A stretch of DNA of 40,313 nucleotides from an uncultured Clostridia bacterium (GTDB lineage: Bacteria > Bacillota > Clostridia > Christensenellales > Borkfalkiaceae). This document shows positions 15,978 to 38,395 of the stretch, in pieces. Within the stretch, counting starts at the first letter, position 1, and every line of letters begins with the position of its first letter. The position numbers and the translations under genes were made by a program. Where the stretch lies: contig CANRNP010000012.1 of NCBI GenBank assembly GCA_947632015.1, positions 1 to 40,313 on the forward strand, read 5' to 3'. The notes beneath the pieces are model-generated. The model saw only the letters and a program-made list of their open reading frames with translations. It ran no database searches and was not told where the DNA came from.

Positions 15978-16556
15978 TTAGCCCTCTGAGTATCCTTCGG
16001 CATGATCCTTACGGATGAGTTTTGCAAGCACGATCACGATAAGGGGCACAAGGATGAGCTGAATGTACAGCCCCAAAAGCCCCGTCTGTACAGAAGCCCA
16101 AAGCTCCAAAAACGATCTGCCTGCAATCAGATTATAGATGACATAAACAGCTCTCCCCGAAACCTGAGCAAGCGCCACAACGGGAAAAGCGACAAAAGCG
16201 TTTTTTTCGATTTTCTTTGCAAACAAACCGCATATCAGACCGTAGAGCGCAAGCTCCAAGATCATGTACGGCAAGCGCGAAGCCGTGGGCATGACGGATG
16301 ATAAAAAGAGGGACGAGAAGCCGAAACTTATGACGGGCGACAGAATGCCGACGCCAAGTCCCCATCCGTAACCCAAAAGGCATCCCGCAAGCAACGCCGG
16401 CGCATACATGGGCATATATGTTGCGGAAAATTCTTTTCCGAAAAAGTGCCCGAATTGCGGTAAGGCAACTGCAAGCACGATCAGCAGAACGGATACCGCG
16501 CCCTTTACGGAAATGCGGACACTTACTTTATAACGTCTTAAAACCGCATCTAACAT
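15978..16556 (-). CDS. ECF transporter S component
   Basis: The 192-residue membrane protein has about six spans and the look of an ECF-type vitamin-uptake S component: a basic N terminus, VSVRISVKGAVSVLLIVLAVALP as the first span, and the glycine-rich MYAPALLAGCLLGYGWGLGVGILSP region typical of these proteins. It binds a micronutrient and works with the shared energising EcfA/EcfA'/EcfT module, which is not in the window. The substrate cannot be read from sequence. The ATG at 16556 follows AGGAGGAAATAAA; a longer frame starting at 16595 lacks a ribosome site. It lies 55 bases after the GH2 gene, separated by a weak 6-bp hairpin, so read-through from the uronate operon is possible. Confidence 0.8.
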   Translation of the reverse strand: MLDAVLRRYKVSVRISVKGAVSVLLIVLAVALPQFGHFFGKEFSATYMPMYAPALLAGCLLGYGWGLGVGILSPVISFGFSSLFLSSVMPTASRLPYMILELALYGLICGLFAKKIEKNAFVAFPVVALAQVSGRAVYVIYNLIAGRSFLELWASVQTGLLGLYIQLILVPLIVIVLAKLIRKDHAEGYSEG

Positions 16557-16611
16557 TTTATTTCCTCCTGAATTTCTATAAAACTTCCGAGGCACACCCT
16601 CGGCGATTTTC

Positions 16612-18513
16612 CTACTTCTGCCAATTCTTCGTATTTGTCTTTTTCAAAATATATGAGGAGTCGGGCTTTTTCGTCCTGATCACCCTGCCCCGATCCGTCA
16701 AAGTGCCCGCTCTCACCTCGATCTCGTTCTCCGCCGCCATCTCCACGGAAAAGCGGAAAACTTTGCTCCCTCGCTTCTTTCCGATCGGTTTTCCGTTCAC
16801 GATCACCTCGACCTCAGGTTGGTTGGTACAGACGACGATCTCGAATCGATTCCCCGTTCTGTTGATAAACCGCTTGCCGCAGAGGTGCACGAACGGCTCC
16901 CGGCTCCAATACGCCTTATAGAGATAGAACGCATCCTTCTTGATCTGTCTGTCGAATGTCACAAGCCCCTTGTGGTTCATTCCCGGCTCGCCCCCCTGAT
17001 TGCGGGCGTCCGCCGCAAAATCAAACATATTCCAAAGATGCGTTGCCCAAAACTCAGGATGCTTTTCGAAAAATTTCAGCATGTACTCGTGATATTTGAA
17101 CTGATACTCCTCGGTATTATCTCCCCTCTTCGGTCTTACCGCATGCAGATTCGGCATGCCCTCCGCGCCGTATTCGCTCATGCCGTACACCCGCTTCGGG
17201 TTGCACGCGCGATAGAACGCATACCAGACCTTGTTCAAGAACAGCCCCGGTACATACCAACCGAGATAGAGATTCCAGCTCACCGCGTCCGTGATCTTCC
17301 CCACCCGATCAAAGGGTGCGCACATCGCAAAGCATGCAAGCACCGTAAACCGGGAAGGATCTATCCCGTGACAGAGCTCATTCAATTTTCTGTGCAGCGC
17401 GAGCATGTCCTTTCTGTGACGGCGGAACATGGTGATCTCGTTCGAGATCCCCCAGCATACGATCGACGGGTGATGATACTGTTGATAAATAAGCTCCTTC
17501 ATCTGCGAGACGGCGTTGCCGTTTGCCTTAGGCATATGACGAGAAATGTAGGGGATCTCGGCCCAGACGATAAGGCCGTATTTGTCGCAGAGGTCATAAA
17601 AATAGTCGTCGTGCTGATAGTGTGCCAGGCGAACGGTATTCGCGCCCGTTTCGAGAATGAGCCGCATATCCTCTTCGTGTTCCGCTTCCGTGATCGCGTT
17701 CCCCAGCCCCTTTCTGTCCTGATGTCTGCATACGCCGTGAAGCGGATACGGCTTCCCGTTGAGAAAAAAACCTTTCTTGGGGTCGACGGAAAAGGTGCGG
17801 AATCCGAAGTTTACGCTCACTTCGTCGCAAAGCTCGCCGCTGTCATAGAGCCGTGCAACGGCCCTGTAAAGGTTTGGCGCCTCCACCCCGTTCCATAATT
17901 TTGCATGGGGGATCACGAGCGCTTCGCCGCTTTTGCCCGTTGCGGCTACCTTCTCTCCGTCATAGACGGACACTTTGATCTCGCCCCCGTTTGCGTATCC
18001 CGTCACCGTCACGACCCCGTCCGTTCCGTTTACGACTGCCTCTGCTTTTATCCCGCTGCTCCCGTAATAGAGCAAATCGAAATGTTTCTTCCCGACAACG
18101 ATCAGATTGACGTCGCGATAGATGCCGCCGTAAAACGTGAAATCCGCCGTCTGCGGATAGACCTTTTCCGAGACGGAATTATCCACGTCCATCCTCAGGG
18201 TGTTTTCTCCCTTCAAAACCTCCGTGACGTCGGCGCGAAACGTAGAGTATCCCCCGTCGTGCGAAGCGACAAGCGTGCCGTTGACATACGCCTTGCAGGA
18301 GGCGTTCACCCCCTTGCATTCAAGAAAAACCCGCTCATCCGCCCCCTTCCGCGGATCGGAAAACGCACGCTCGTAAAAGCAGGTCCCGCGCCAATAGTCG
18401 TTCCCGCCGTCCTGTCCGTCCAAACAGTTCCATGTGTGCGGAAGATCGATCGCTTCGGTCCTCCCCTCTTTGGTGAATCGCCACCCCTTGTTGAGACAAT
18501 AACGGGCTCTCAT
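16612..18513 (-). CDS. GH2 family glycosidase (beta-glucuronidase or beta-galactosidase)
   Basis: The 633-residue enzyme has the usual GH2 order: sugar-binding jelly roll (1-140), immunoglobulin-like domain (150-245) and a TIM barrel (250-540). The acid/base E359 lies in WGISNE, and the nucleophile E447 in GMSEYGAEG. NHKG (N513, K515) stands where beta-glucuronidases use an N-x-K motif to bind the carboxylate, though some beta-galactosidases have NDKG there. No signal peptide is present, so the enzyme is cytoplasmic. The gene is last in the uronate operon, 11 bases after araC, with a strong GAGGAGG site. With a hexuronide symporter and UxaC beside it, cleavage of imported beta-glucuronides is the favoured role, but this is inference. 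Confidence 0.88.
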   Translation of the reverse strand: MRARYCLNKGWRFTKEGRTEAIDLPHTWNCLDGQDGGNDYWRGTCFYERAFSDPRKGADERVFLECKGVNASCKAYVNGTLVASHDGGYSTFRADVTEVLKGENTLRMDVDNSVSEKVYPQTADFTFYGGIYRDVNLIVVGKKHFDLLYYGSSGIKAEAVVNGTDGVVTVTGYANGGEIKVSVYDGEKVAATGKSGEALVIPHAKLWNGVEAPNLYRAVARLYDSGELCDEVSVNFGFRTFSVDPKKGFFLNGKPYPLHGVCRHQDRKGLGNAITEAEHEEDMRLILETGANTVRLAHYQHDDYFYDLCDKYGLIVWAEIPYISRHMPKANGNAVSQMKELIYQQYHHPSIVCWGISNEITMFRRHRKDMLALHRKLNELCHGIDPSRFTVLACFAMCAPFDRVGKITDAVSWNLYLGWYVPGLFLNKVWYAFYRACNPKRVYGMSEYGAEGMPNLHAVRPKRGDNTEEYQFKYHEYMLKFFEKHPEFWATHLWNMFDFAADARNQGGEPGMNHKGLVTFDRQIKKDAFYLYKAYWSREPFVHLCGKRFINRTGNRFEIVVCTNQPEVEVIVNGKPIGKKRGSKVFRFSVEMAAENEIEVRAGTLTDRGRVIRTKKPDSSYILKKTNTKNWQK

Positions 18514-18524
18514 CGTTTCCTCCT

Positions 18525-19310
18525 CTATTTCTTGCGGCGACCCTTTGAAGCGGACAACGAGCCGTCCTCTAATAATTTCAGATACTGACGGTAAAACGTC
18601 GAATAGTTGTCAAACCCGAACTGCGCGGCGACATAGGACTTCTTTTCTCCCGTGAGGATAAGCTGATGCGCCGCGATGATCTTTTTCAAGCGTACATACT
18701 GCATCACCGAAATTTTCATATACCGCTTGAATTCGTTGCTGATGTACGATTTTGAAAAATGGAACTCCTCGCTGATCCCTTCCAGCGTGATCGGCTGGCG
18801 GATGTGCTCGTCGATATAGCGGATGATCTTCGCGATCGTCGTGTTCGTCTGATGCGGTGTCGCCTGCGGCTCTTTGGACAGCGTCACCAAAAATTTTACC
18901 AGCTCCGCAAGATACAGCGCTTTCAGTTCGTCGTCGGAATAATTTCCGTAGTACGTGTCGTAAACCGTGAACGACAATAAGTTTTCACTTCCTCTCAAAA
19001 ACGGACCGAGCGTCTTGATCCGCTCTGAGAGAAAGGAGGGGATCAGCTCGCTTGGAAATTTCAGCACGTACCGTTCATACTGTACGTTGGAATTGACCGT
19101 TGCAAAATGATACTGCCCCGGCGCGACCACGACAACATCCCCCGATACAAGCCGCCTCGTATCCGATTCCACCGTATATTCCACGTCGCCCTCCACAAAG
19201 TAAATCACTTCGTTGAACGCATGCACGTGCTTGAAATATTGTTCCGTCGGATTGCTCGCGGCATCCAGTTTATGGGCGAAATCGATCCCGCCGTAAATAA
19301 AATTAAACAT
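18525..19310 (-). CDS. AraC-family transcriptional regulator of the uronate operon
   Basis: The 261-residue protein has an N-terminal cupin sensor domain (about residues 10-95, with HVHAFNEVIYFVEGDVEY and the VAPGQYH turn). The C-terminal tandem helix-turn-helix follows (about 165-250, with ITLEGISEEFHFSKSYISNEFKR and YVAAQFGFDNYSTFYRQY). It probably senses a uronate or glycoside and activates transcription. Candidate targets are the paired ATTGCAAT boxes 21 bp apart at 28439-28467 and 38424-38452, because AraC-type dimers often use such spacing. The gene lies inside the operon, overlapping the LarA-like gene by eight bases, which implies autoregulation. Confidence 0.9.
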   Translation of the reverse strand: MFNFIYGGIDFAHKLDAASNPTEQYFKHVHAFNEVIYFVEGDVEYTVESDTRRLVSGDVVVVAPGQYHFATVNSNVQYERYVLKFPSELIPSFLSERIKTLGPFLRGSENLLSFTVYDTYYGNYSDDELKALYLAELVKFLVTLSKEPQATPHQTNTTIAKIIRYIDEHIRQPITLEGISEEFHFSKSYISNEFKRYMKISVMQYVRLKKIIAAHQLILTGEKKSYVAAQFGFDNYSTFYRQYLKLLEDGSLSASKGRRKK

Positions 19311-20571
19311 CGGCCTTCAACCTGCTCTCTTCCATCCATAGCCCTAAGGCGGGATTGGGGATAAAAAAGATCTCTTCGCCGTCCGGCATCCTGTTCCACC
19401 CCGCCGACAGCTTTTCGGGATCATAGCGTCTTTTTGCCTCGTCGTAGTCGGCATATCGGAAATTGACACCCTCGATCTCCTCTTTCGTCATACGCCTGAC
19501 CGCGTAAGTGATCGTAAATCTGCCATCGGACGATCCGTGTATGAGGTGCGCCGCGGTCCCCATGTTTTCTTTTAGGTCCTTCTCCGTTTTGAAGAGTTCC
19601 AAAACTCTTTTCCGTCCGACATACCCGTACTTTCGTATGATCGCGTCCTGCATAGGGTCCTCGCCGAATTTCTCGATCCCCGGCGCAAGCACCAAGAGTT
19701 CCCCGCCGTCCGCGATCGCCATGCGGGTCCGGTAGATCGCTTTGTTTCCGAGCCATGTGCTCTTGAATTCCTTCGGATCGAGATAGACGACGCATTTCCC
19801 GATCGGACGGTCGAGAATGTCCAGATTCTTTCTCTGTGCAAGCGAAATCGCCGCCTCCAAAGGCTTCCTGCCTTCGCCGATGAATAGACCGTGCATGCGG
19901 ATCGCCCCTTCGGGCGCGGTCGTCACCGTAAGCACCCAAAGGATCGGGAGTTTGGCTAAAAAGTGGGTGATGCAGTAATCGAACAGCTTTCTCGTGACGG
20001 TGTTGTCCCGCCCCATCATGCGCTCCAAGCCGTACAGCGCTCCCACCATGTGGGAAGCGTTGATAAACTTGCTGCCGCCCAGTCCCACCAGAATATTCTT
20101 GGAGTGATTTGACATGCCAACGACCTCGTGCGGCACGACCTGCCCCACCGACAAAATGAGATCGTACCCCCCGAATAAGATCTGATTGACTTCGCAGTCG
20201 ATCGGTTCCGTCCAAGTTCCCTCGGAGATCTCTTCGAGATAGTCCGCCGGTACCGTTCCCACCTTGACGACGTCCGTCCGCCAACGGTGTTCCAGAAACT
20301 TCTCGTAGGGGATGTCCCCGAACATTTCGGCGCACTCTTCTTTTGTCATCTTCGCATGGGTGCCGAGCGCAGGCATGATGTCTACCTCGATTCCTTCGAG
20401 GGCATGATAGTAAACGTTCGTAATATATCCCGCGTTGGAATGAAAGCGCGTAAAGTCGGGCGGAACGATCAGCACCTTCTTTAATGTTCTGCCTTCGATC
20501 GATTTGAAGAGCGCCTCTTTGATCTCTTCGGGTGAAAGAGTTTCCCCTGCCGCCTGATACTCCAAATACAT
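19303..20571 (-). CDS. LarA-family nickel-pincer racemase/epimerase homologue (candidate gluconate/mannonate 2-epimerase)
   Basis: The 422-residue protein belongs to the LarA (DUF2088) family of enzymes that carry the nickel-pincer nucleotide. Conserved elements are the PDFTRFH segment (D39, R42), GTH with H72, GQVVPHEVVGMSNHSKN with H148 and K158, and NASH with H174. The H148-K158-H174 spacing (10 and 16 residues) is the same as that of H174, K184 and H200 in lactate racemase, so the cofactor site looks intact. It sits nine bases after gnd in a glucuronate operon that lacks mannonate dehydratase. C2 epimerisation of mannonate to gluconate would connect the genes; this is inference, although I recall that a LarA homologue with gluconate 2-epimerase activity has been reported. 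The cofactor genes larB, larC and larE are not in the window. Confidence 0.88.
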   Translation of the reverse strand: MYLEYQAAGETLSPEEIKEALFKSIEGRTLKKVLIVPPDFTRFHSNAGYITNVYYHALEGIEVDIMPALGTHAKMTKEECAEMFGDIPYEKFLEHRWRTDVVKVGTVPADYLEEISEGTWTEPIDCEVNQILFGGYDLILSVGQVVPHEVVGMSNHSKNILVGLGGSKFINASHMVGALYGLERMMGRDNTVTRKLFDYCITHFLAKLPILWVLTVTTAPEGAIRMHGLFIGEGRKPLEAAISLAQRKNLDILDRPIGKCVVYLDPKEFKSTWLGNKAIYRTRMAIADGGELLVLAPGIEKFGEDPMQDAIIRKYGYVGRKRVLELFKTEKDLKENMGTAAHLIHGSSDGRFTITYAVRRMTKEEIEGVNFRYADYDEAKRRYDPEKLSAGWNRMPDGEEIFFIPNPALGLWMEESRLKADV

Positions 20572-20580
20572 TCTATACCT

Positions 20581-22023
<1,443 letters not shown>

Positions 22024-22080
22024 ATTTTCAATCTCCTTTTCCTATTTTTTCCTATTTTTTCTGATTTTTTCGGAATCTGT

Positions 22081-23142
22081 TTATCCGAACGTCCTCTGTT
22101 CCAAGTCCCAAATCAACCCTTCGTCCAACGGCAGACCGTAGTCGTCCGCGAGCCCGGAAACCAACGCAGTGCAACCCCACCCGAAGGCAAGCCGCTTCCC
22201 GATTTCCCAACCCTTTACGGTGGCGTACAGAAATCCGCCGACAAAGGCGTCCCCGCCGCCGATACGGTCGTAGACAGGCATCTCCCGCGGCGTGTAAACC
22301 GTATATTCTCCCCCGGCAAGCGCCACCGCACCGAATATGTGCCGGTTGACCGAGAGCACCTCCCGCACGGTCGAGACGTGGATCTCCGCCCCAGGATAGC
22401 CCTCACGCGCCTTTTCGAGCAGAAATTCGGCTCCCTCGACGCGGCTGTTTGCATCCGTAAATTTTAATCCGAAAAACGGCTTCGCCCGCTCTTTCTTTTC
22501 AACAAGCACGTCGCCTCCGAAGAGAATATCGGAGAGAGAAGCGATCTCATCGAAGAGGGGCAGAAGTTTCTCCTCGCGTCCCTCCCAAAGGGACGGGCGA
22601 TAGTTGGTATCGAACGAGACGATCGTGCCGTATTCCTTCGCCTTTCGCGCGAGATCGAGACAGCAGCGCGCCGATCCATCCGACAGGGAACATATGAGCC
22701 CGCTGATATGCAGGATCGAAACCCCCTCTTTTCCGAACAGCTCATCGGGGGCAAATTCCTCCGCCTTGATCGTCCTTCCGATCTCTTCCGCGCGGTCATT
22801 ATCGACGCGGGGAGCTCTCAGACCGAACCCGCACTCTGCGATATTGCTCGGATGCCGTCCGCTCCACGGACCGGAGCGCTTTTCCTGCACGTCCGTACAG
22901 ACGATCCCCCGGCTGCGGATATCCCGACGGATAAATTCGGAAAGAGGATCGTCCTTTATAAACTTTGTAAGTGCCTTGACGGGCAATCCCAGCGCGGCGG
23001 GAATGGATAGCACGTTGCTCTCCGCACTCGTCGCCTGCAACCGGAAGCGGTCGCTCGTCTGCACCTGCCGGAACTCCGTCGGCGCAAAGCGGACCCCAAG
23101 GCTCGTAGGCGCGGCAATGGCAAAGGTTCGGTTTTCTCTCAT
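22081..23142 (-). CDS. PfkB-family sugar kinase paralogue A (NxxE motif lost)
   Basis: The 353-residue protein is a paralogue of the kinase encoded directly upstream; both share ATSAESNVLSI, GLRAPRV, YRPSLW/YRASFW and the anion-hole motif DRIGGGD. The catalytic aspartate (D298) is present. However, the NEED segment of paralogue B, equivalent to the Mg-binding N-x-x-E motif, is replaced here by GGDVL (209-213). The active site may therefore be weakened or altered, or this may be a regulatory subunit. It begins 12 bases after the stop of paralogue B without a clear ribosome site, which suggests coupled, perhaps weaker translation. Annotation as a 2-keto-3-deoxygluconate kinase would be usual, but gluconate is the substrate that fits the operon. 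Confidence 0.87.
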   Translation of the reverse strand: MRENRTFAIAAPTSLGVRFAPTEFRQVQTSDRFRLQATSAESNVLSIPAALGLPVKALTKFIKDDPLSEFIRRDIRSRGIVCTDVQEKRSGPWSGRHPSNIAECGFGLRAPRVDNDRAEEIGRTIKAEEFAPDELFGKEGVSILHISGLICSLSDGSARCCLDLARKAKEYGTIVSFDTNYRPSLWEGREEKLLPLFDEIASLSDILFGGDVLVEKKERAKPFFGLKFTDANSRVEGAEFLLEKAREGYPGAEIHVSTVREVLSVNRHIFGAVALAGGEYTVYTPREMPVYDRIGGGDAFVGGFLYATVKGWEIGKRLAFGWGCTALVSGLADDYGLPLDEGLIWDLEQRTFG

Positions 23143-23154
23143 ACTACTTGCGGA

Positions 23155-24213
23155 TCATCTCAGGATGCGCGCATTGCCCGCCCAGATGTCCCAGATCTGC
23201 TTTTCGTCCGCAGGCAAGCCGAAATCGTCGAGGAGGGTCGTTACAAATGCCCCCGACGCCCAACCGAACTGTGCGCATTTTTCGGGCTCCCAGCCCAGAG
23301 AGACCCCATACAGAAGCCCCCCGACAAATCCGTCGCCGCCGCCGATACGGTCAAGCACGGGGATGGAGCGGGGTTCTATGACCGTCCATTCGTCTCCGTG
23401 CAACATGATCGCTCCCCAGAGGTGCTCGTTGGCGGATACTACCTGGCGCAACGTCGTTGCAAACATTGCCGCATTCGGATAAGTTTTTTTGACATTTTCG
23501 ACCATCCCCTGAAAACGCTCGATCTTTCCCGCAATGTCTTTGCCGCCCGCTTCGGGGCCCTCGATCCCCAAACAGAGCTGAAAATCCTCTTCGTTGCCGA
23601 CGAGGATATCCGCCGCCCCCGCGATCTCGCTGAAAATTTCGGAGAGCTCTTTCTCTCTTCCCTTCCAAAAAGAAGCGCGATAGTTAAGATCGAAGGAGAT
23701 CTTCGTTCCGTACTTCTTTGCCGTACGCGCAAGTTGCAAACAAAACTTGCCCGTATCGGGCGAGAGCGCGCAGATGAGACCGCTCATGTGCAGGATCTCG
23801 CACCCCTCTTCCCCGAAAATGCGCTCCAAATCGAAATCCGCCGTGCTCAACGTTCTGCCGACCTCACCCGCTCTGTCGTTCGCAACGCGGGGAGCGCGGA
23901 GGCCGTAGCCGCTGTCCGCGATGTTGAACTGATGGCGATATCCCCAAGGACCGCCCTGCGGGACTTCCCTGCCCTCGAAGCCGATGCCGCGGCGGCGGAG
24001 ATCCCCCTTGATAAATTGCGCGATGGGACTGCCTTCGACAAAGGTCGTAAGCACCTTTACGGGTAAGCCCAGCCCTGCGGAAATACTGAGCACGTTGCTC
24101 TCCGCACTCGTCGCCTGCATGCGGAATATGTTTGAGATCGCCACGGGCTGCCGATCGGGAGGAGTGATCCGCACTCCCATGCTCGTCGGCGCGATAATCG
24201 CATACTTTTTCAT
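23155..24213 (-). CDS. PfkB-family sugar kinase paralogue B (2-keto-3-deoxygluconate kinase-like; candidate gluconate kinase)
   Basis: The 352-residue protein has the complete PfkB layout: substrate region ATSAESNVLSISAGLG (34-49), SFDLNYRASFW (173-183), the Mg-binding NEED (207-210, in place of NxxE), and DRIGGGDGFVGG (288-299) with the catalytic aspartate D294. KDG kinases of this family phosphorylate a sugar acid, so a role on a uronate-derived acid is expected. With Gnd in the operon and no aldolase, phosphorylation of gluconate to 6-phosphogluconate is a coherent alternative to KDG; this is inference. The ATG at 24213 follows AAGGAGAAAAAAGTT and aligns with paralogue A; a frame starting at 24252 lacks support. 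Confidence 0.9.
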   Translation of the reverse strand: MKKYAIIAPTSMGVRITPPDRQPVAISNIFRMQATSAESNVLSISAGLGLPVKVLTTFVEGSPIAQFIKGDLRRRGIGFEGREVPQGGPWGYRHQFNIADSGYGLRAPRVANDRAGEVGRTLSTADFDLERIFGEEGCEILHMSGLICALSPDTGKFCLQLARTAKKYGTKISFDLNYRASFWKGREKELSEIFSEIAGAADILVGNEEDFQLCLGIEGPEAGGKDIAGKIERFQGMVENVKKTYPNAAMFATTLRQVVSANEHLWGAIMLHGDEWTVIEPRSIPVLDRIGGGDGFVGGLLYGVSLGWEPEKCAQFGWASGAFVTTLLDDFGLPADEKQIWDIWAGNARILR

Positions 24214-24266
24214 AACTTTTTTCTCCTTTTTCCCGCGCGAAGCGGGACGCAAATTTTATGGCTCCG

Positions 24267-25100
24267 TTATACTCCGCTGTAAGCGGCAAATCCGCCGTCG
24301 ACCGCGATCACCGAACCCGTTACAAAGCCGCTCGCTTCGTCGCTTGCAAGCCACAAAAGGGTGCCGATGAGATCCTCCGTCTCGCCGAACCGCTTCTGCG
24401 GCGTCGCGCTCAGGATCTTATCCGTACGGGGCGTGGGCGTGCCGTCCGCGCGGAACAGAAGCGCCCTGTTCTGATTTGTCACGAAGAAACCGGGCGCGAT
24501 CGCGTTGCAACGGATCCCGCAGGGAGCAAAGTGCACGGCAAGCCACTGCGTGAAGTTGGAGATCCCCGCCTTCGCCGCCGAATACGCCGGTATCTTCGTG
24601 AGCGGCCGAAAGGCGTTCATCGAGGAAATGTTGAGAATGTTCCCGCCCGTTTGGACCATGTCCGCGGCAAATACCTGTGTCGTCAAAAAAGCCGACAGAA
24701 TGTTGAGATCGAACACAAATTTGATCCCGCTCTCCTCTAAATCGAAGAAGGTCTTTATCTCCCCGGACAGATCGGGGGTCATCGTCTCGTTATCGCACGT
24801 CGCCTTGGGGTTATTTCCCCCCGCGCCGTTGATGAGAAAATTGACCTTCCCGAACGCCTCGCCCACCGTCTCCTTCGCCTGAATGATGCTCTGTTTATCG
24901 AGACAGTTGCACCTCACCGCGATCGCATTCTCTCCGATTTCGTCTGCGTATTTTTTAGCCGCTTCGTAATTGATGTCGAGAAGCGCCACTTTTGCGCCGC
25001 ACTCTGCCAGCGCCTTTGCAAATTCGCTCATGAGCACTCCGCCCGCGCCCGTCACTGCCGCAACTTTGTCGCTCAGATCCACTTTGAACGGTAATTTCAT
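24267..25100 (-). CDS. uxuB: SDR family D-mannonate oxidoreductase (fructuronate reductase, YjmF/UxuB type)
   Basis: The 277-residue protein is a classical SDR with the nucleotide loop TGAGGVLM (17-24), the NGAG strand (91-94) and the catalytic triad S160, Y173 and K177 (YSAAK). The TGxGGVL-type loop and the insert around residues 96-122 (NNPKATCDNETM...) are characteristic of the Bacillus YjmF group, which reduces D-fructuronate to D-mannonate with NADH. It lies 13 bases after uxaC, the enzyme that makes fructuronate, which supports the assignment. AAGGAG precedes the ATG at 25100. The substrate could also be another ketohexonate, such as tagaturonate. Confidence 0.85.
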   Translation of the reverse strand: MKLPFKVDLSDKVAAVTGAGGVLMSEFAKALAECGAKVALLDINYEAAKKYADEIGENAIAVRCNCLDKQSIIQAKETVGEAFGKVNFLINGAGGNNPKATCDNETMTPDLSGEIKTFFDLEESGIKFVFDLNILSAFLTTQVFAADMVQTGGNILNISSMNAFRPLTKIPAYSAAKAGISNFTQWLAVHFAPCGIRCNAIAPGFFVTNQNRALLFRADGTPTPRTDKILSATPQKRFGETEDLIGTLLWLASDEASGFVTGSVIAVDGGFAAYSGV

Positions 25101-25113
25101 TTCTGTTTTCTCC

Positions 25114-26445
25114 TTATAGATTCATAAATATTTTCGGATTCCGATAGCAGATGTCTTTGAGCAGCGCGTTTGCGCTCTCCGCATCGTATTCTCCCGCTTC
25201 CGTTTTTTTCGCCACGTAGTCGCACAGGATCCTGCGGAAAAAGTCGAAACGGCAATAGCTTGAAAAGGAGCGGCTGTCCGTCAACATGCCGGGCGATATA
25301 CCCAAGACCGAATACTCGGCAAGCGTTTCAAGATGCGCCAAGATCCCCTTTAAGGTATCGTTGAACCACCATGCCGCGCCCATCCTTACATTCGGGAAAC
25401 AAGGCGCGATCGTGCAAAGCGCAGGCACCGCGTTCCTGTTGAGGGAATATAACAGCGTTTTGGGCAATTTCCCGATTTTATACAGCGAATCAAGAAAGAC
25501 CGCAATCCCGTCCGTGTCGATGTTTCCCTGCATGACGTCGTATCCCGCGTCACACCCGATCGCTCGGTGCGCCGTCGTATTGATGTTCCTCAGCGCTCCG
25601 ACATGCAACTGCCAGACGATCCCGTATTCCGCGAAAAGTCCGCCTAAAAATTTCATCCCATAAGAGTAAAAACGGCTTTTTTCCGCGGGCGTACGGTCTT
25701 CCCCCTTTGCGAACAACTCTTCCGCCTCCGTTTCGGTCACGTCCGTACGCACGCTTTCCTCCACGCTGGTATCGGCGATCGTGCACCCCTTCGTCACAAA
25801 ATATTTCAAACGTTCCGTCAGCGCCTCTTTCCAATCTCCGAGCGTACGGATCTCTCGCCTAGCCGCACTGCCGAGTTTTTCCAAATATGCGCTTTCAAGA
25901 CGGAGCGCCTTATCCGGCCGAAAGGTCGGACATACTTTTATGCCGTCGTAACTGCCGTGAAATTCGAGTTGTTCGATCGGGTCGTTCGTCGTTGCGATAT
26001 ACTCCACGTTGAATTGCTTCAAAAGCGTACGCACCGACAGCGACTTCAATTTTTCATTCGCCTCTTTGTAGATCGCCCGCGCCGTCCTTTCGTTGAGCGG
26101 CTCTGCGATCCCGAACAACTTTTTCAGCTCGAAATGCGTCCAATAGTAGAGCGGGTTTCCGAGAAGCTTGGGCATCACCGAAGCGTATGCGTAAAACTTT
26201 TCTTCATCGCCCGCGTCTCCCGTGATCCATTTTTCCCCGATCCCGCAACTGCGCATGGCTCGCCATTTATAGTGATCGGCGCTCAGCCAGAGTTCGGTGA
26301 TCGTATTGAATTTCCTGTCCTCCGCGATCTCTTTCTCCGAAAGATGGGAATGGTAATCCACGATCGGCAGATCCTTCACTTCTTCATAATACTTGCGGGC
26401 CGTTGCGGAATGCAATAAAACTCCCTCGTCAAAAAATTCTCTCAT
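25114..26445 (-). CDS. uxaC: Glucuronate isomerase UxaC
   Basis: The 443-residue protein is a UxaC homologue of the amidohydrolase superfamily. It interconverts D-glucuronate and D-fructuronate, and also galacturonate and tagaturonate. VDYHSHLS (29-36) supplies the metal-site histidines H32 and H34. Further conserved stretches are ATTNDPIEQLE, WQLHVGALRN and the C-terminal GMLTDSRSF. It is slightly shorter than the usual 465 or so residues, but no conserved block seems missing. The ATG at 26445 overlaps the stop of the transporter gene by four bases (ATGA), with AGAGGAG upstream, so transport and isomerisation are translationally coupled. Confidence 0.95.
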   Translation of the reverse strand: MREFFDEGVLLHSATARKYYEEVKDLPIVDYHSHLSEKEIAEDRKFNTITELWLSADHYKWRAMRSCGIGEKWITGDAGDEEKFYAYASVMPKLLGNPLYYWTHFELKKLFGIAEPLNERTARAIYKEANEKLKSLSVRTLLKQFNVEYIATTNDPIEQLEFHGSYDGIKVCPTFRPDKALRLESAYLEKLGSAARREIRTLGDWKEALTERLKYFVTKGCTIADTSVEESVRTDVTETEAEELFAKGEDRTPAEKSRFYSYGMKFLGGLFAEYGIVWQLHVGALRNINTTAHRAIGCDAGYDVMQGNIDTDGIAVFLDSLYKIGKLPKTLLYSLNRNAVPALCTIAPCFPNVRMGAAWWFNDTLKGILAHLETLAEYSVLGISPGMLTDSRSFSSYCRFDFFRRILCDYVAKKTEAGEYDAESANALLKDICYRNPKIFMNL

Positions 26446-28376
26446 GACTGCTCCTCTTTTTCAGGAAGATATTCTGCGGGGATCTCGATCGCATTGACCG
26501 AGGGCTCCGCCGAAACCTTCTCCCGCCGTGTGAACACGGCGCCGTATATCTTATCCAGAATGTTCGCCTTTTTGGGCTCGCCCGTCTTTTTGTCAAGCGC
26601 CACATGCACGGGCGCCACGAAGCGCGCGGGAACCTGGTCGATCGTCTGCCACGTTTTCATCGCCTCTTCCATCGGCATGCCGCCCTCGACCGCCGCCTTC
26701 CGCACCGCGTTCACTGCCTGTATCTCCTGCAACCGCTTGCCCGAAAGACCGTATCGCGTCATGCAAAATACCGTCACCAGCCACGCCGCCATCGGAAGGA
26801 TGCAGAAGCAGATGATCGCCGAAAGTTTCATCCCCTCCATGTACGCCGTCGCCTCGCCCGGCAATGCGTTCAAGCCCGGAACCATGTACACGATGAATAC
26901 CGTCAGAAGCAACGTTTGCAGCGACGATATGATCTTGTCCACCAGCGAGAAAATCGTCCCCATGATCCCCGGCACATATTTCCCCGAACGGTAGGTCTCG
27001 TAGTCCGTACAATCCGCAACCATCGGGATCGTCAGATTGTCGCAACAATTAAACGCTCCGTATCCGCAGCCGTAAAAAATAATGAAGAAAATCGTGTAAG
27101 CGTTGATCGTAAGATGGAATCCGCCCTCCGTCGAGAAGATGCTCAGCCATGTCGCGGGATTATCATGGTCATAAATACACAGGAGCACGAGCACGCCCAC
27201 ATAGAAGAGCAACGCAAACAGCGTGAATTGCGCGACCCCGCGCTTCTGCCCTTTCTTGCCTGCCGTCGAACTCCCCCATAGGAAGAACACCCCCATAAAG
27301 ATAAAGCAGAGCGCATAGAAGGGGATAAAGAGCCCGTTGTAATCCCCCATGAGACAGCCGTAGATCAAAAATGCCACCGTCCCCGACGTCGCGATCGTGG
27401 AGGCAAGTTTGTTGAGCCCCGACGAGAGCACCAGCCAGCGGATCTCTTTGTTTCCCTTTAAGATCCCCGCGTAGTCTCTGAGTTTTGCGGGCTCGCTCTC
27501 GATCCCCCAATACTGCGGACGGTCCTTCTCCGAGATCGCGGCATAAGCCATGATCGTATAGACCGCCGAAACGCAGATGACAAACGGCACCATGATATTG
27601 TAGAACTGCGCGCCGTACCCCGCGCCATAGACGTAGGCATACTGTTTGCCCGCTTCAAGCAGACTGAAATCGTAAGAAATATTTCTCGACGCGAATTCCG
27701 CCGCAAGCGTCTCGATCGAAAATCCGTTTTCCGTCACTTCATAGATGATCAGCCCTTTCGGACAGATCGCTTCGTTCGTAAGTACGCCGCCCGCCATTAC
27801 ATTCACGAGCACGATCGATCCGATCATGCCGATCATGTTCCAGATAACGAACTGCGAACGCTGCTTGGGATCGTTGGTAAGACAGGTCTGACCCGCCTTC
27901 GTCACCGCGCATTGGCAGGTGTATCCGAGGACGTAAACAATGTAACTCACGATATACACCATCCAGCGCAACCAGGCAAGCTGATTATTCAATCCGCGGA
28001 AAAACACCATCATGAGCAACAGGGAAAGGGCAAGCAAAATATTCCCCAGGATCATGTAAGGCCGAAACTTGCCGATCCTCGTTTTGGTGCGGTCCATAAT
28101 TCCCCCTAAAAGAGGATCGGTGATTGCGTCGAATACCCGCATAAGCGGCGCAAAGATCGCGTTGAAACTTGTGATCGCGAGCGCCAGCCCGCCCGCAATG
28201 AGGGTACCTCCGATCGCCGTCGCCGCACTGCCCGTCAGATACATCATCGCGAAATATGTAAAATAGGTGTAGAACGCAAAGTAGACGTTCGTCGCCGCAT
28301 TGTTGAACGGGAATAACGCCACTTGCCATTGCTTTGCGCGATTGACCGCCGCGCTGTCTCCTCCTTGTAGTGTCAT
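26442..28376 (-). CDS. GPH-type MFS transporter (glycoside-pentoside-hexuronide:cation symporter)
   Basis: The 644-residue protein has about twelve membrane spans and the GPH signature after the second span: DAITDPLLGGIMDRTKTRIGKFRPY near residues 83-107, a variant of the DPxxGxxxDRTxxxxGRxRP motif. GPH carriers import melibiose, pentosides or hexuronides with a cation. Given uxaC, the likely cargo is glucuronate or a beta-glucuronide. It is longer than typical (about 450-500) because of an insert near residues 200-250 and a hydrophilic C-terminal tail of about 100 residues, which could be regulatory. It is the first gene of the operon; AGGAG precedes the ATG, and a promoter with paired activator-like boxes lies upstream. 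Confidence 0.88.
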   Translation of the reverse strand: MTLQGGDSAAVNRAKQWQVALFPFNNAATNVYFAFYTYFTYFAMMYLTGSAATAIGGTLIAGGLALAITSFNAIFAPLMRVFDAITDPLLGGIMDRTKTRIGKFRPYMILGNILLALSLLLMMVFFRGLNNQLAWLRWMVYIVSYIVYVLGYTCQCAVTKAGQTCLTNDPKQRSQFVIWNMIGMIGSIVLVNVMAGGVLTNEAICPKGLIIYEVTENGFSIETLAAEFASRNISYDFSLLEAGKQYAYVYGAGYGAQFYNIMVPFVICVSAVYTIMAYAAISEKDRPQYWGIESEPAKLRDYAGILKGNKEIRWLVLSSGLNKLASTIATSGTVAFLIYGCLMGDYNGLFIPFYALCFIFMGVFFLWGSSTAGKKGQKRGVAQFTLFALLFYVGVLVLLCIYDHDNPATWLSIFSTEGGFHLTINAYTIFFIIFYGCGYGAFNCCDNLTIPMVADCTDYETYRSGKYVPGIMGTIFSLVDKIISSLQTLLLTVFIVYMVPGLNALPGEATAYMEGMKLSAIICFCILPMAAWLVTVFCMTRYGLSGKRLQEIQAVNAVRKAAVEGGMPMEEAMKTWQTIDQVPARFVAPVHVALDKKTGEPKKANILDKIYGAVFTRREKVSAEPSVNAIEIPAEYLPEKEEQS

Positions 28377-28650: not shown

Positions 28651-31617
28651 TCAGGAGATCTCATTCAGTTTCGGATCGTTCCCGTCGTCTTGAACTTCTT
28701 TCTCCTTTTTTGTTCTATAATAGCTCACATACTTTACCGTGAGCATTGTGCCGCTCGCCGCCGTCAGAACCGCGCCGATGATCACGAGCGTCAGTGCGAG
28801 AATCTCTACCCAGGTCTTGACTATGACCACACGGTCTGCCGTGGAGATCCCGTTCATACTCGCGGAGAAGTTCGCCGTAACATATAAGATCCTGTGCGCC
28901 GATTCGCGCAATTTGTTCGCAAACATGGCGCTGCCTTTGAAATCGGCAAGTCCTGTCGGATCGGCAGGTCCGTCGTACAAATTGGTGCCGTTTGCAATGC
29001 CGTCTACAAACGTCATGAACACCTTCGCGTTCGCGTCTGCCATATCGGTGATCGAATAGCCGTCGAAGCCCCATTCATCGCGCATCATGCCTTCCATCAG
29101 GGCGCTGCTTGCGCTTGTCCAAATGCACCCGATCCGGTTGAAAGAAGTCATGGTCGCATGGGCGTTGCCCATAGACGGACGGAAACTCATTTCAAAGGGT
29201 AGCAACATGATCTCGCGCAGTTCCTGCTCGTTGAGCCATACCGCAACGCCGTTCCGGTTGGTCTCCTCGTTATTCACCGCATAATGCTTCACATAGGCGA
29301 CGACGCCTTTCTTCTGCATCCCGACGACTTCCGCCACGCTCGCGCGCCCCGAAAGATAGGGATCTTCCGAAAAGTATTCGTGCGCTCTGCCGCCGAAGGG
29401 GGTACGGTGCATATTGACTCCGGGGGCATACAGTCCCGTGACCTTTGCCGCGAGGGCGTCCTCCGCGAGGGCGTCGCCCGCACGTTCGACGAGTTCGAGA
29501 TCAAACGTGGACGCCCAGATCCCCTCGGAGGGGAAGGCTACGCCCGTCGTCGATTTGGAAACGCTGTTGGGACCGTTTTCGTCCGTCGTTCCGGGTTTTC
29601 CGACCGAAGCGACGGGGCGGGTGATATGTTGCCCCCAGGTGACGAGTTCCGCCTGCTCTTCATAGGTCATCTGGTCGAGCAGATCGTCCCAGCGGGGATC
29701 GTCGTAAGCGACAGGATCTTCTTCCGTCGAGCGGAGCATCGCGACCGTAAGCCCGTTGCTCGCGCCGTAAGAGGGCATCGCCGTGCCGTCTTCGACGAGG
29801 GGCTTGTTGCTGCGGATGTCCGTTACCATCTGATCGGTCATGGACAGTGAAACCGCGGCTTTGGGCCATGTACCCTCCCAATCGTTGCGGGAGACATAGA
29901 CGGCGCGATTGTCGCCACGACCCTCGTATCGGTTGATGTCGCTGAAATCGAAGCGGTTGGAGATCTGCCCGCCCGTTTCGGAAGAGACGGAATAAGTCTT
30001 ATCGTCGAACGAATCGACATGGTATTTAGCGCAGAGGGAGACATCGGCATAAATATCCTCCACCGCATAGCCCTGCGCCGTGAGAATATTGTTGAGCGCA
30101 TTATGCGCGTCCTTGCCCGCGGCAAACCAATAGTCGCCATCGTCGACGATATAAGTCTGCGCGCCGTATGCGTCGTACGATTTGAGCCGTTCTTTGGGGA
30201 TCTCCACGGTGACCGTCTGATCCTCGCCCGATTCAAGCACTTTCGTCTTTGCGAAGCCGACCAGTTCGATCGCAGATTTCTCGATCTTATGCTCAATATC
30301 GTACTGCGTGTACGGCTTTTGGAGATAGATCTGGACGACCTCTTTCCCCGCATAGGCGCCGATATTCATGACATTGACCGTTGCCGTAAACGAATCCTCG
30401 TTCTCGGTGAGCTCGAATCCGCTGTACAGAAACTCGGTATAACTCAGACCGTGCCCGAAGGGGAAGGCGACGTCGTCCGCATAGACATAATCGCCCGTAT
30501 TTGCCCTTCCGGTGACGGCATCGGCATACCTCGTCTCATAATAGCGGTATCCGACGTAAATGCCCTCGACGTAGACCGCATACACGTTCTGCGTTTCCCC
30601 GAACTCCTGCGCGCTGTTTTGGTAGGTCTGCGTAAACTTTTTATCGGGATTCAATCCCCAGCTTGCCATGGCGGGCGAGGAAAAGTTATCCTTCACATAG
30701 GTATCGGAGAGCCTGCCGGAGGGAACGACGTCGCCGGAGAGCACATCGCCGATGGCGTAAATGCCCGTGGAGCCGACGTTGCCGACCCAAAGCGCCGCAT
30801 CGATCGAGATCGTATCGTCGAACATGAAATCGAGCTGCACGGGGACCGCGGAATTCAAAAGCACGATCACGCGCTTGAAAGTCCCCGAATTTTTCAGCCC
30901 CGTGATCCCGCGCAACACGCTCAGCTCCTGCTCCGAAAGGGACAAATAGCTGCCGTCGAGCCCGTCGGATCCGGACGTGGTGATGTCTCTGCCCTCGCCG
31001 CTGTCGCGGGAAATGACATAGATCGCCGCGTCGCCGTATGCCGCAAACGTATTCGTGACCGAGGACTTATACATATCCCAGGCGGGTTCCCTGATCTTAT
31101 ACACGAAGTTTTCCTGCGTGCGGCCGTACATTCTCGGATCGAGTTGCGCATAGAACCCGATCAGTTCTTCGTTTACCTCATAATCGTCCAGCGCCTGCGA
31201 CAGGGTGGGAAATGCGCTCGAACCCGTGGTATTTGACGAACCTGAGGAGTTATAGTTGAATTTATACGCGCCATAGCCGAACAGGCTGACCTTACTGCCC
31301 TTTTCGAGCGGAAGCGCATAGCTCCCGTCGCTGAGCGGTTCGTTGCGGAGAAGCACCATGCCCTCCTCTTCGAGCTTGCGGCAGGTCTCCTCCATATACG
31401 CTTTGAGCGACTCCGTATCGGAATAGTCGGACTTGAAGTACTCCGTATCCTCGCCGCTCGAATCCCCTTTGATGGTCACAGAGGTTTGGAGATGGAGCGC
31501 GGCGGTGATCGCGGCGGCATTGCTCATTGCCAGATTGTACACCCCGATGAAGAGCGCCAACAGGAATGCCGACACAAAAAACAGTGTGCGGGCGAGTTTG
31601 ACTGAAAACTTTTTCAT
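28651..31617 (-). CDS. Membrane-anchored GH3 beta-glycosidase, circularly permuted
   Basis: The 988-residue enzyme has the domain order of GH3 proteins of the Ruminococcus/Butyrivibrio kind: the GH3 C-terminal domain and Fn3-like module come first (about 60-480), and the TIM barrel last (about 640-920). In the barrel, DENGPN, GGRAHEYFSEDPYLSG, KHYAVNNEETNR and the nucleophile D858 in SITDMADA are visible. A membrane span lies at each end (about 10-32 and 935-962), with a basic tail inside, so the catalytic part should face outward. The ATG at 31617 overlaps the preceding gene by four bases and has AAGGAGG. It probably releases glucose, xylose or a similar unit from glycans at the cell surface. 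Confidence 0.9.
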   Translation of the reverse strand: MKKFSVKLARTLFFVSAFLLALFIGVYNLAMSNAAAITAALHLQTSVTIKGDSSGEDTEYFKSDYSDTESLKAYMEETCRKLEEEGMVLLRNEPLSDGSYALPLEKGSKVSLFGYGAYKFNYNSSGSSNTTGSSAFPTLSQALDDYEVNEELIGFYAQLDPRMYGRTQENFVYKIREPAWDMYKSSVTNTFAAYGDAAIYVISRDSGEGRDITTSGSDGLDGSYLSLSEQELSVLRGITGLKNSGTFKRVIVLLNSAVPVQLDFMFDDTISIDAALWVGNVGSTGIYAIGDVLSGDVVPSGRLSDTYVKDNFSSPAMASWGLNPDKKFTQTYQNSAQEFGETQNVYAVYVEGIYVGYRYYETRYADAVTGRANTGDYVYADDVAFPFGHGLSYTEFLYSGFELTENEDSFTATVNVMNIGAYAGKEVVQIYLQKPYTQYDIEHKIEKSAIELVGFAKTKVLESGEDQTVTVEIPKERLKSYDAYGAQTYIVDDGDYWFAAGKDAHNALNNILTAQGYAVEDIYADVSLCAKYHVDSFDDKTYSVSSETGGQISNRFDFSDINRYEGRGDNRAVYVSRNDWEGTWPKAAVSLSMTDQMVTDIRSNKPLVEDGTAMPSYGASNGLTVAMLRSTEEDPVAYDDPRWDDLLDQMTYEEQAELVTWGQHITRPVASVGKPGTTDENGPNSVSKSTTGVAFPSEGIWASTFDLELVERAGDALAEDALAAKVTGLYAPGVNMHRTPFGGRAHEYFSEDPYLSGRASVAEVVGMQKKGVVAYVKHYAVNNEETNRNGVAVWLNEQELREIMLLPFEMSFRPSMGNAHATMTSFNRIGCIWTSASSALMEGMMRDEWGFDGYSITDMADANAKVFMTFVDGIANGTNLYDGPADPTGLADFKGSAMFANKLRESAHRILYVTANFSASMNGISTADRVVIVKTWVEILALTLVIIGAVLTAASGTMLTVKYVSYYRTKKEKEVQDDGNDPKLNEIS

Positions 31618-32063
31618 TGCTTGCCTCCTTCCGCCGCTTTGCCGCCGAATTCGTTTTTGAGTAAGATCGCCGCAAAGAGCGTACACAGCGTCGAGAGCAA
31701 CAAGAGCCCGAACGTAAAGATGAACGGATAGAGGATATCCGGTTTAAGCCCGGTGGGATCGATCCCGACAAGGACATTCGCAAGATAGGACATCTCCGAG
31801 TTCAGATACGCGAACCACGCGGAAAAGAGCAGGAGAAATGCTATGTACGGGATCAACTTTCCGTCAAAATTCACCGAAAGGAAATGGGAGACGACTGCAA
31901 CGGCGGCGAGAACTACACCGATCGCGGCGAGCGCGATCACGGAAGCGTCGAGCCGAAGGATAAAGTCGTTGACGCCCTTTGCCGCATACAGGATCAAGGC
32001 GACCGCACCGAGAATACATCCGGCGGCGGACAGGATCAAACTTACCGTATTTCCACGCTTCAT
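31614..32063 (-). CDS. Small four-span membrane protein of the GH3 operon
   Basis: The 149-residue protein is not recognised. It consists almost entirely of four hydrophobic spans (near residues 7-27, 40-61, 70-88 and 111-134) with short loops and a charged C terminus (KNEFGGKAAEGGKQ). Its ATG at 32063 has a GGAGG site inside the end of the lipoprotein gene. Its end overlaps the GH3 start by four bases (ATGA), which ties its translation to the anchored GH3 enzyme. It may help membrane insertion or assembly of the surface enzymes; this is a guess based on context only. Confidence 0.75.
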   Translation of the reverse strand: MKRGNTVSLILSAAGCILGAVALILYAAKGVNDFILRLDASVIALAAIGVVLAAVAVVSHFLSVNFDGKLIPYIAFLLLFSAWFAYLNSEMSYLANVLVGIDPTGLKPDILYPFIFTFGLLLLSTLCTLFAAILLKNEFGGKAAEGGKQ

Positions 32064-32065
32064 CG

Positions 32066-34003
32066 TTATGCCTCCGTCCTCTTCTGCTCGCAGATCTCTT
32101 CGTTCTTGGGCGTCCAGCTCAAAGTCGCATCCGTGCAGACATAGATGCAGTCCACGATGGGCGAATTTGCGTTCATCGTGCCGTCCGGATACAGCTTATC
32201 GCTGTTCGTTACGGTGAGCGTAATGGTGTTCCTCCCCTTCACGAGGTGCGCGCGTGTGTTCATGATGAAGTTTTCGAACGGACGGATGTCGTTATTGAGG
32301 TCGTCGCGTTCGCCGTACAGGCTGATCTCGTCGTAATCGAGCTCTTCGCCGTTGACCGTCACCGAATAGCGTTCGGGGTTGAACACCTGGGGCGCATACA
32401 TCGCCTGGATCCTCAAAATCACGACGGCGTCGGTTACCTCGCGGTCGGATTCGATCACAAATTGCAGGTTTGCGCCGTTATAGAAGAGCATGCCCACCCA
32501 AAAACCGTTGCTGGCGTTTGCGTGCCTGTCGTCCTTGATGATGAGGTCCTCCGGACCGGAGCCGTTGTTGGAGTATCCGAGCCCCGTCTTGCCGTCGAGA
32601 TCGGTGTATTCCGCTTCGAAGGTGTATTGACGGTACCATTTCGCATAAACGGAGATGCTCGCCGTAACGCGGCGGTCGAAGCTGAACTCCGTCGTGCATC
32701 CGGCATCGGTGTACCAACCCATAAAGTAGTAATTTTCGCGTTCGGGAGCGGGAACATCGCCGACGGACACCCGCTGGTTCTTCTTCACCGAGAAACTCTT
32801 GTAGGTATCGTCGCCGGTGCCGTAATTGAGATGGAAGGTCACGGTGAAGGTGTCATCCTGTCCAGTGCTGTTCTGCTCCCAATGAGCCGTGAGCGTAAGA
32901 TCGGAGGTGACGGGCGTCGAGAAGATATATTCGTCCTCTTCGAGATACCAGCCCGCAAACGACCAACCATCGCGCGTGCGTTCTTCGGGTTCCGAGACCG
33001 GTTTGCCATGCTCGACCGTCTCCGTCGTATCCGCTTCGTTGCCATAGTTCCAATGGAACGTGACGGTGTACGTCTTGATCGTCCATTTTGCATACAGCGT
33101 GAGATTTTCCGTCACCGCCGCTTCGAAGTTATACTGCGTCGTGCAGGCGGCTTCCGTGTACCAGCCGCCGAAGTCATAGCCTTCGCGCTCAGGTGCGGGC
33201 GTAGGCGCCGTTACGCGCTCCCCTACCGTGACTTTGGCGGGAGAAGGATTTTCGGAGGGCTTATAGTTGAGGTCGAACGTGATCTCGGCGGTCGTGAGCG
33301 TCCAGCCCGCATAAAGGGTGATGTTCGCAGAGACGGGCGTCGTGAAATCGAAGGGGTGCTCGCAAGTAGCTTCCATATACCACGCATCGAACGCATAATC
33401 GTCTCTTTCGGGTGTTTCCGGCTGTTGCACCGTCTGCCCCGAAGTGACCGTCACCGTGCGCATCGCGGGCGCACCGACATAATTATAATTAAAGGAAACC
33501 GTGACCGTCGAGCTCGACCAGCCGGCATAGACGACTGTCGCCTTTGTGATGGGCGTTTCGAAATCGAACAAGGTCGTGGCGGCGGCGGTCGTGTACCAAC
33601 CGGTAAAGGAATAGCCGCCGTCGCGGGTGGGCTCGCCGTCGGGTCTTTTTGCCTTTTCTCCCGACTTCACGGTCTGGCGGTCGAATACGCCGCCTCCCTG
33701 ATAGTTCAAATTGAAAACGACGTTAAAAGTCGTATCTTGATCGCTCGGTGTGCCGCTTTGCCGATAGCCGCATACCGTGCAGGCTCCGTCTTTTAAGGTG
33801 TGTGCCGCCTTGCCGCTGACCTCCGTCTTATGATCGCAGGTCGCCGCATGCCAATGGTTGGTGTCGTCGTATGTCCATGCGTCGGAAAAGGTGTGTTTGT
33901 GCTCTTCCGTCGTTTCCCCGCAGGCGGTCACGCCGATAAAAAGGACTGCGGAAAGCAGGATCGAGACAGACATTCTGAAAATTTTCAAAATTGTTTTTCG
34001 CAT
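32066..34003 (-). CDS. Surface lipoprotein with five InlB-type repeats and a carbohydrate-binding-like domain
   Basis: The 645-residue protein has a signal peptide and a perfect lipobox, VTAC with C28. A histidine- and cysteine-rich segment follows (35-80), including HWHAATC and CTVCGY, possibly metal binding. Five InlB B-repeat (Listeria-Bacteroides) units come next at about 92-163, 165-235, 238-308, 310-376 and 384-457, each ending in a YAGW/YAKW-like motif. The last part (about 460-630) begins YTFEAEYTDLDG and resembles CBM6/35-type beta sandwiches that bind sugars. It is probably a substrate-capturing or adhesive partner of the GH3 enzymes encoded on either side. GGGGG precedes the ATG at 34003. 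Confidence 0.87.
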   Translation of the reverse strand: MRKTILKIFRMSVSILLSAVLFIGVTACGETTEEHKHTFSDAWTYDDTNHWHAATCDHKTEVSGKAAHTLKDGACTVCGYRQSGTPSDQDTTFNVVFNLNYQGGGVFDRQTVKSGEKAKRPDGEPTRDGGYSFTGWYTTAAATTLFDFETPITKATVVYAGWSSSTVTVSFNYNYVGAPAMRTVTVTSGQTVQQPETPERDDYAFDAWYMEATCEHPFDFTTPVSANITLYAGWTLTTAEITFDLNYKPSENPSPAKVTVGERVTAPTPAPEREGYDFGGWYTEAACTTQYNFEAAVTENLTLYAKWTIKTYTVTFHWNYGNEADTTETVEHGKPVSEPEERTRDGWSFAGWYLEEDEYIFSTPVTSDLTLTAHWEQNSTGQDDTFTVTFHLNYGTGDDTYKSFSVKKNQRVSVGDVPAPERENYYFMGWYTDAGCTTEFSFDRRVTASISVYAKWYRQYTFEAEYTDLDGKTGLGYSNNGSGPEDLIIKDDRHANASNGFWVGMLFYNGANLQFVIESDREVTDAVVILRIQAMYAPQVFNPERYSVTVNGEELDYDEISLYGERDDLNNDIRPFENFIMNTRAHLVKGRNTITLTVTNSDKLYPDGTMNANSPIVDCIYVCTDATLSWTPKNEEICEQKRTEA

Positions 34004-38266: not shown

Positions 38267-38395
38267 AAAGTTTTCCTCCTTAAAAATTTTCTTTATTACG
38301 GCGCTCTGCGCTATAATACCTTCTTTGGCGGTGATCAAATCGGCGGTTCCTCGCCTCGCTCTTGCTCGAAGGTCCGCCGCTTCATCCTAACATTC

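Follow-up and report, generated by a model that had tools for sequence, protein, structure and literature searches.

A candidate operon for glucuronate use through gluconate, with a group 18 LarA homologue, in an uncultured Clostridia bacterium

Introduction

How does a bacterium use glucuronate when the mannonate dehydratase UxuA is missing beside its hexuronate genes? A 40,313-nucleotide stretch of DNA from an uncultured Clostridia bacterium (assembly GCA_947632015.1, contig CANRNP010000012.1; the whole stretch is called the window below) raises this question. It carries a run of genes for UxaC, a short-chain dehydrogenase/reductase (SDR), two PfkB kinases, the 6-phosphogluconate dehydrogenase Gnd, and a homologue of LarA. 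We propose, at a probability of about 0.72, that these genes form one operon for beta-glucuronides in which a UxaC-fed glucuronate route runs through gluconate to ribulose-5-phosphate. Among the readings weighed here this one is best supported, because UxuA has no match anywhere in the source genome, the LarA homologue belongs to group 18, Gnd is conserved beside such LarA proteins, and kinases of gluconokinase families replace PfkB in related loci. Articles are cited by PubMed Central number, and statements drawn from them refer to the portions of each text available to us.

Results

Gene content and proposed route

The first-pass annotation had described nine tightly spaced minus-strand genes at 16612 to 28376. 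All of these open reading frames were found there, their family assignments were confirmed, and the listed frames are spaced by -8 to 57 bases.

26442 to 28376, minus strand: GPH/MFS_2 symporter, predicted to take up beta-glucuronides or hexuronate (Pfam MFS_2, 91.9 bits, cut-off 27)
25114 to 26445, minus strand: UxaC, glucuronate/galacturonate isomerase (Pfam, 472.8 bits; NCBIfam, 451.6 bits, cut-off 387; both passed)
24267 to 25100, minus strand: SDR, fructuronate reductase of the D-mannonate oxidoreductase type (PRK08277, 401.4 bits, cut-off 281)
23155 to 24252, minus strand: PfkB1, predicted gluconate (or mannonate) 6-kinase (Pfam PfkB, 64.2 bits, cut-off 25.8)
22081 to 23142, minus strand: PfkB2, paralogue of PfkB1 (Pfam PfkB, 47.9 bits, cut-off 25.8)
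20581 to 22023, minus strand: Gnd, decarboxylating 6-phosphogluconate dehydrogenase (TIGR00873, 753.3 bits, cut-off 426.7)
19303 to 20571, minus strand: LarA homologue of group 18, predicted nickel-pincer-dependent D-mannonate/D-gluconate 2-epimerase (NF052594, 619.9 bits, cut-off 500)
18525 to 19310, minus strand: AraC-family regulator (Pfam AraC_binding and HTH_18)
16612 to 18513, minus strand: GH2 glycosidase, likely a beta-glucuronidase (Pfam GH2 domains)

We infer co-transcription of the nine genes, as well as every reaction that follows and the substrates of both kinases. The symporter would import beta-glucuronides, from which the GH2 enzyme would release glucuronate; UxaC would convert glucuronate to fructuronate, and the SDR would reduce fructuronate to mannonate. 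Group 18 LarA, with its nickel-pincer nucleotide (NPN), would invert C2 and so turn mannonate into gluconate, which PfkB1 would phosphorylate to 6-phosphogluconate for decarboxylation by Gnd to ribulose-5-phosphate. The reduction by the SDR and the oxidation by Gnd would cancel, provided that their cofactors match. An isomerase (in other loci an epimerase), a reductase, a LarA-type epimerase, a hexonate kinase, and Gnd thus stand together in one locus, with a kinase of a different family, PfkB.

The SDR has its YxxxK motif at residue 173. The probable start of PfkB1 is an inner ATG near 24213, and its gap to the SDR gene is then about 53 bases. The symporter scored 98.6 bits against the NCBIfam gph model (cut-off 231.35) and likewise fell below the cut-off of the glucuronide transporter model; a relative heads the same gene set in a locus of the same genus (L126). 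For the GH2 protein the best NCBIfam match was "beta-glucuronidase LacZ4" (BetGlucuronLacZ4; 511.2 bits, under the cut-off of 950), and an NxKG motif, a mark of glucuronidases, lies at residue 513.

UxuA and KDPG aldolase in the source genome

The source genome is a 1.69-Mb draft of 83 contigs, 97.5% complete. UxuA, on which the classical UxuA-KdgK-KdgA branch of glucuronate use depends, gave no match across it in a search with PF03786, a search that left enolase-type and IlvD-type dehydratases aside; the same search found matches in 5 of 14 control genomes, Escherichia coli among them. UxuA, read as absent from the operon, was not found in the genome either. The parallel claim for 2-keto-3-deoxy-6-phosphogluconate (KDPG) aldolase stands for the operon but not for the genome, which carries two copies (KdgA) elsewhere. 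Both directly adjoin a KdgK-like PfkB gene of their own, and after one of the two pairs come a GH88-like gene, a DUF2264 gene, and an SDR gene. Given the GH88-like neighbor, unsaturated uronides are a possible source for these genes, which may have a role in unsaturated uronide use. The pairs lie at G000:C53 (L137) and G000:C8 (L138), and each stretch also encodes a BspA-type leucine-rich-repeat protein.

These findings bear on a classical logic for the operon, by which a mannonate dehydratase other than UxuA would act, the PfkB proteins would be 2-keto-3-deoxygluconate (KDG) kinases, a KdgA encoded elsewhere would finish the pathway, and Gnd and LarA would serve otherwise. The two KdgA genes fit it, and so does PfkB1: its nearest solved chain by sequence is 2afb, a KDG kinase (117 bits), and PfkB1 itself resembles such kinases. 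PfkB1 nevertheless reached at best 85.7 bits against the NCBIfam KDG kinase equivalog (cut-off 440), and neither PfkB1 nor PfkB2 passed the cut-off of any NCBIfam model. Since UxuA has no match in the source genome, each KdgA already has a KdgK-like partner, one of them beside the GH88-like gene, and Gnd accompanies PfkB in 45 of 47 PfkB-bearing LarA loci (see below), we consider the classical logic very improbable.

The LarA homologue

The LarA homologue passes the curated NCBIfam model NF052594, "nickel-dependent putative hexonate epimerase" (NPN_18, group 18). With this group it shares the predicted hexonate substrate, put forward in 2020 as a hypothesis (PMC7583248); the present analysis adds the logic of the operon and the finding that LarB, LarC, and LarE are missing. 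The NPN-binding and catalytic residues of LarA, D72, R75, H108, H174, K184, and H200 (roles in PMC7583248), correspond to D39, R42, H72, H148, K158, and H174, and these six positions are invariant in all 91 aligned sequences, 55 of which come from genomes without LarC. The protein has the LarA fold, and its structural model is nearest to the D-gluconate epimerase GntE2 of Thermotoga maritima, which converts D-mannonate (PMC7583248). Its closest relative, 88% identical, is from an uncultured Clostridia bacterium.

Conservation of the gene set

A first scan of a genome collection returned 41 loci whose LarA homologues are 45 to 88% identical to that of the window, from Clostridia, other Bacillota, Acholeplasmataceae, Izemoplasmatales, Spirochaetes, Bacteroidales, a Deltaproteobacterium, a Cellvibrionaceae, and Poribacteria. 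Individual scores were obtained for 10 of the 41 LarA proteins, mostly the most distant ones, and all 10 passed the group 18 cut-off. A second, evenly drawn sample covered 393 genomes of the window's class; 50 of them, among these the source genome, had a group 18 LarA over the cut-off. The 51 stretches around the second-sample matches, after one duplicate was dropped, brought the set to 91 loci, which were searched by tblastn to a distance of 9 kb from LarA.

Gnd was found near LarA in 73 of the 91 loci, which argues that the gene grouping is more than chance. Kinases near LarA were PfkB (47 loci), FGGY (12), and GntK (1), and reductases were an SDR (52) or a mannitol-type dehydrogenase (10). 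Orders such as PfkB-Gnd-(SDR)-LarA recurred. The full set of UxaC, reductase, kinase, Gnd, and LarA occurred in 14 loci, and the version with UxaE also in 14, two loci being in both counts. UxaC lay near LarA in 17 of the 91 loci (UxaE in 19), and UxuA had no match in 56 of the 79 group 18 genomes searched.

Kinases in the slot beside LarA

In the kinase slot, 46 of the 91 loci had PfkB and neither of the other families, 12 had FGGY or GntK without PfkB, 1 had both, and 32 showed none, an alternation with a Fisher P value of 0.0006, uncorrected for kinship. In locus L038 a gluconokinase of the GntK/IdnK type (165 bits, cut-off 113.75) stands before LarA, and L030 and L033 have FGGY kinases whose best match, under the cut-off, was gluconokinase. 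That different kinase families replace one another around LarA and Gnd is our strongest argument that PfkB makes 6-phosphogluconate or 6-phosphomannonate. A limited literature search gave nothing to point to for PfkB as a gluconokinase. PfkB2, 51% identical to PfkB1, retains the GGGD motif. The only counterpart seen is in L126 (71%). None is present in L003, although this is the closest locus, and L004 has a second PfkB that is closer to PfkB1 than to PfkB2.

Which of the two phosphates is made depends on the order of steps, which is not readable from gene content. PfkB might act first and yield 6-phosphomannonate, with group 18 LarA as a 6-phosphomannonate 2-epimerase ahead of Gnd. This order has been measured in extracts of Lactobacillus suebicus, as mannonate kinase and 6-phosphomannonate 2-epimerase activities with genes not identified (PMC6978723), and an alignment read by eye places R281, R283, and R351, invariant in 25 group 18 sequences, opposite K, Q, and T in GntE2. 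We consider it unlikely all the same: LarA groups 19 and 20 use free D-mannonate (PMC7583248), and L038 carries a GntK-type kinase, while E. coli GntK reportedly does not use mannonate (Cohen 1950, cited in PMC6978723). Epimerization of the free hexonate is thus the favored order, and a 6-phosphogluconate route by way of LarA is likely.

Missing genes for the nickel-pincer cofactor

The first-pass annotation had named larB, larC, and larE as genes to look for in the full genome, and none scored over the cut-off there. LarC had no match, and LarB and LarE gave weak matches far under the cut-off, like those in control genomes that fail it. LarA activity would consequently depend on cofactor supplied from outside the cell or by some unknown pathway; the absence neither confirms nor removes the route.

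The source genome is not alone in this. Of the 42 genomes in the first set, 17 had LarC over the cut-off and 15 had LarE; of the 51 in the second (the source genome belongs to both sets), 17 had LarC and 13 had LarE, and LarE never occurred without LarC. Among 80 genomes (12 LarC-bearing ones were left out), LarB occurred in 20 of 22 with LarC and in none of 58 without it. None of LarB, LarC, and LarE was thus over the cut-off in 58 of 92 group 18 genomes, source included; these counts take in G154, where LarA is only in fragments, and treat G074, whose LarC match is under the cut-off, as LarC-less. Some sets with LarC were broken: G006, G033, G046, G173, G273, and G380 lack LarE, and G173 and G380 also LarB. 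We rejected incomplete assembly as a general cause, because 58 genomes lack all three genes, including two assembled as a single contig (G077 and G208; completeness 97 and 100). It may apply in single cases such as G003 and G017, LarC-less genomes whose LarA is nearly identical to that of LarC-bearing G004 and G030, and of G019.

The absence of these genes in 58 of 92 genomes could also mean that group 18 LarA is a relic, inactive or working in another way, where LarB, LarC, and LarE are missing. We regard this as quite unlikely, given that the six catalytic and NPN-binding positions are just as invariant in LarC-less genomes, that 50 of 56 LarC-less loci retain Gnd near LarA, and that LarC status requires 17 changes on the LarA tree, 12 of them forced by well-supported branches (a quick tree of 90 rows).

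LarC was missing from 34 of 51 genomes with group 18 LarA versus 18 of 53 with only other LarA-type matches (P = 0.0016). Lack of LarC is therefore not special to group 18, and missing cofactor synthesis may be wider than this group. Some of the LarA-type matches in these 53 genomes are weak, and of the 35 that have LarC three show short partial matches; none of 20 near relatives that gave no LarA match had LarC. The reverse case, larB, larE, and larC without larA, has been described in about 15% of genomes (PMC11796402). Our literature search found nothing on NPN uptake or on LarA without LarB, LarC, and LarE, and a 2014 survey of lar genes and a review may hold prior notice.

The missing genes raise the question of whether the nickel-pincer cofactor travels between cells. 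NPN may be a shared vitamin: bacteria whose group 18 LarA is intact, but whose LarB, LarC, and LarE were lost or never present, would import it, its riboside, or a late precursor from community members. We put this boldest reading of the data forward tentatively, at somewhat less than even odds. Such uptake implies an importer still to be found.

Genes around the operon

One weak candidate for an importer lies 3' of the GH2 gene, separated from it by a terminator-like hairpin:

16587 to 16603, minus strand: terminator-like hairpin, between the GH2 gene and the ECF gene
15978 to 16557, minus strand: gene resembling the S component of energy-coupling factor (ECF) transporters (Pfam ECF_trnsprt, 23 bits, short of the cut-off of 30.7)

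The ECF gene has an ATG with a ribosome binding site at about 16557 and is probably a transcription unit of its own, outside the operon. Terminator-like sites number 17 in the region against a shuffled mean of 14.9, close to chance. Relatives of the ECF gene adjoin LarA in L004, L007, L014, L015, and L031; with the window, where the gene follows GH2, these are six genomes, all without LarC. At an E value of 1e-6, 16 of 42 genomes had relatives, of which 13 lack LarC and 3 have it (P = 0.050); 12 LarC-less genomes had none. None lay near LarA in the 50 second-sample stretches, and over all loci the P value was 0.079. We dropped the ECF S component as NPN importer and keep it as a weak lead.

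A uridine-kinase-like P-loop gene also occurs near LarA in four Acholeplasmataceae loci (L014, 11857 to 12648; L015, 11746 to 12636; L031, 11814 to 12641; L009, 4220 to 4837), in frames of 206 to 297 amino acids and in genomes that all lack LarC. The L015 protein scored 20.6 bits against Pfam PRK, under the cut-off of 22. In L014, L015, and L031 the gene directly follows the ECF gene; these loci are close kin, so the pair possibly reflects one event. Its product could rephosphorylate an imported riboside, for which it is a weak candidate.

Upstream of the operon, an inverted repeat was spotted by eye between a GH3 gene and the symporter gene. No Rfam element reached the gathering score near the operon except two tRNAs. 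Farther upstream, at 28651 to 31686 and 34133 to 38338 of the window, are two GH3 proteins whose domains run in reverse (GH3_C, Fn3-like, GH3_N), the larger of which also has Ig-like and collagen-like repeats. Between them, at 32066 to 34003, a surface-type protein carries five stretches of Listeria-Bacteroides repeats (226.5 bits).

Discussion

The proposed route shares its first two steps with the classical UxaC-UxuB-UxuA-KdgK-KdgA pathway and differs from it in having no UxuA match. It is not new in kind. Conversion of mannonate to gluconate was proposed earlier, credited to Rodionova et al. 2012 (PMC6978723), and the gnd-uxaRED-gntEK genes of the T. maritima UxaR regulon (PMC3750489) are proposed to serve the same route; further gluconate epimerases are also on record (PMC11770544). 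In T. maritima, however, the substrate is galacturonate, the locus has UxaE, and GntE is a LarA of group 20, whereas the window has UxaC, group 18, and a PfkB kinase. T. maritima also has UxuA (our search control; PMC3750489) and LarC (search control), while UxuA, LarB, LarC, and LarE were not found here. The galacturonate route of L. suebicus likewise joins isomerase-pathway steps to 6-phosphogluconate and Gnd and is redox-neutral to ribulose-5-phosphate (PMC6978723). There UxuA was undetected in the proteome (PMC6978723), as it is unmatched in the genome here, but mannonate is phosphorylated first and the phosphate then epimerized. Because both routes embody the same idea, the operon is a variant of one proposed earlier. 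What is added is PfkB in the gluconokinase slot, and group 18 LarA without LarB, LarC, and LarE in the source genome and 57 others.

Several observations weigh against the proposed route, beyond the KDG-kinase-like character of PfkB1, the order of steps in L. suebicus, and the need for an outside or unknown cofactor source. The predicted specificities of the symporter and the GH2 enzyme draw on matches under the cut-off. Within 9 kb of LarA, 32 of the 91 loci showed no kinase and 18 no Gnd, some of them at contig ends, and all five Poribacteria loci showed LarA alone. UxuA was present in 23 of the 79 group 18 genomes searched, in two of them weakly. In the literature available to us, no assayed activity of any group 18 LarA was found.

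If the route is right, PfkB may represent an additional type of gluconokinase, and entry into the pentose phosphate pathway would use a nickel enzyme from a group with no assayed member in that literature. Were NPN shared, uronate use by these bacteria would depend on their neighbors, and they would be a first example of NPN auxotrophy. More broadly, many bacteria, many Clostridia among them, would channel uronates into the pentose phosphate pathway at no cost in reducing power.

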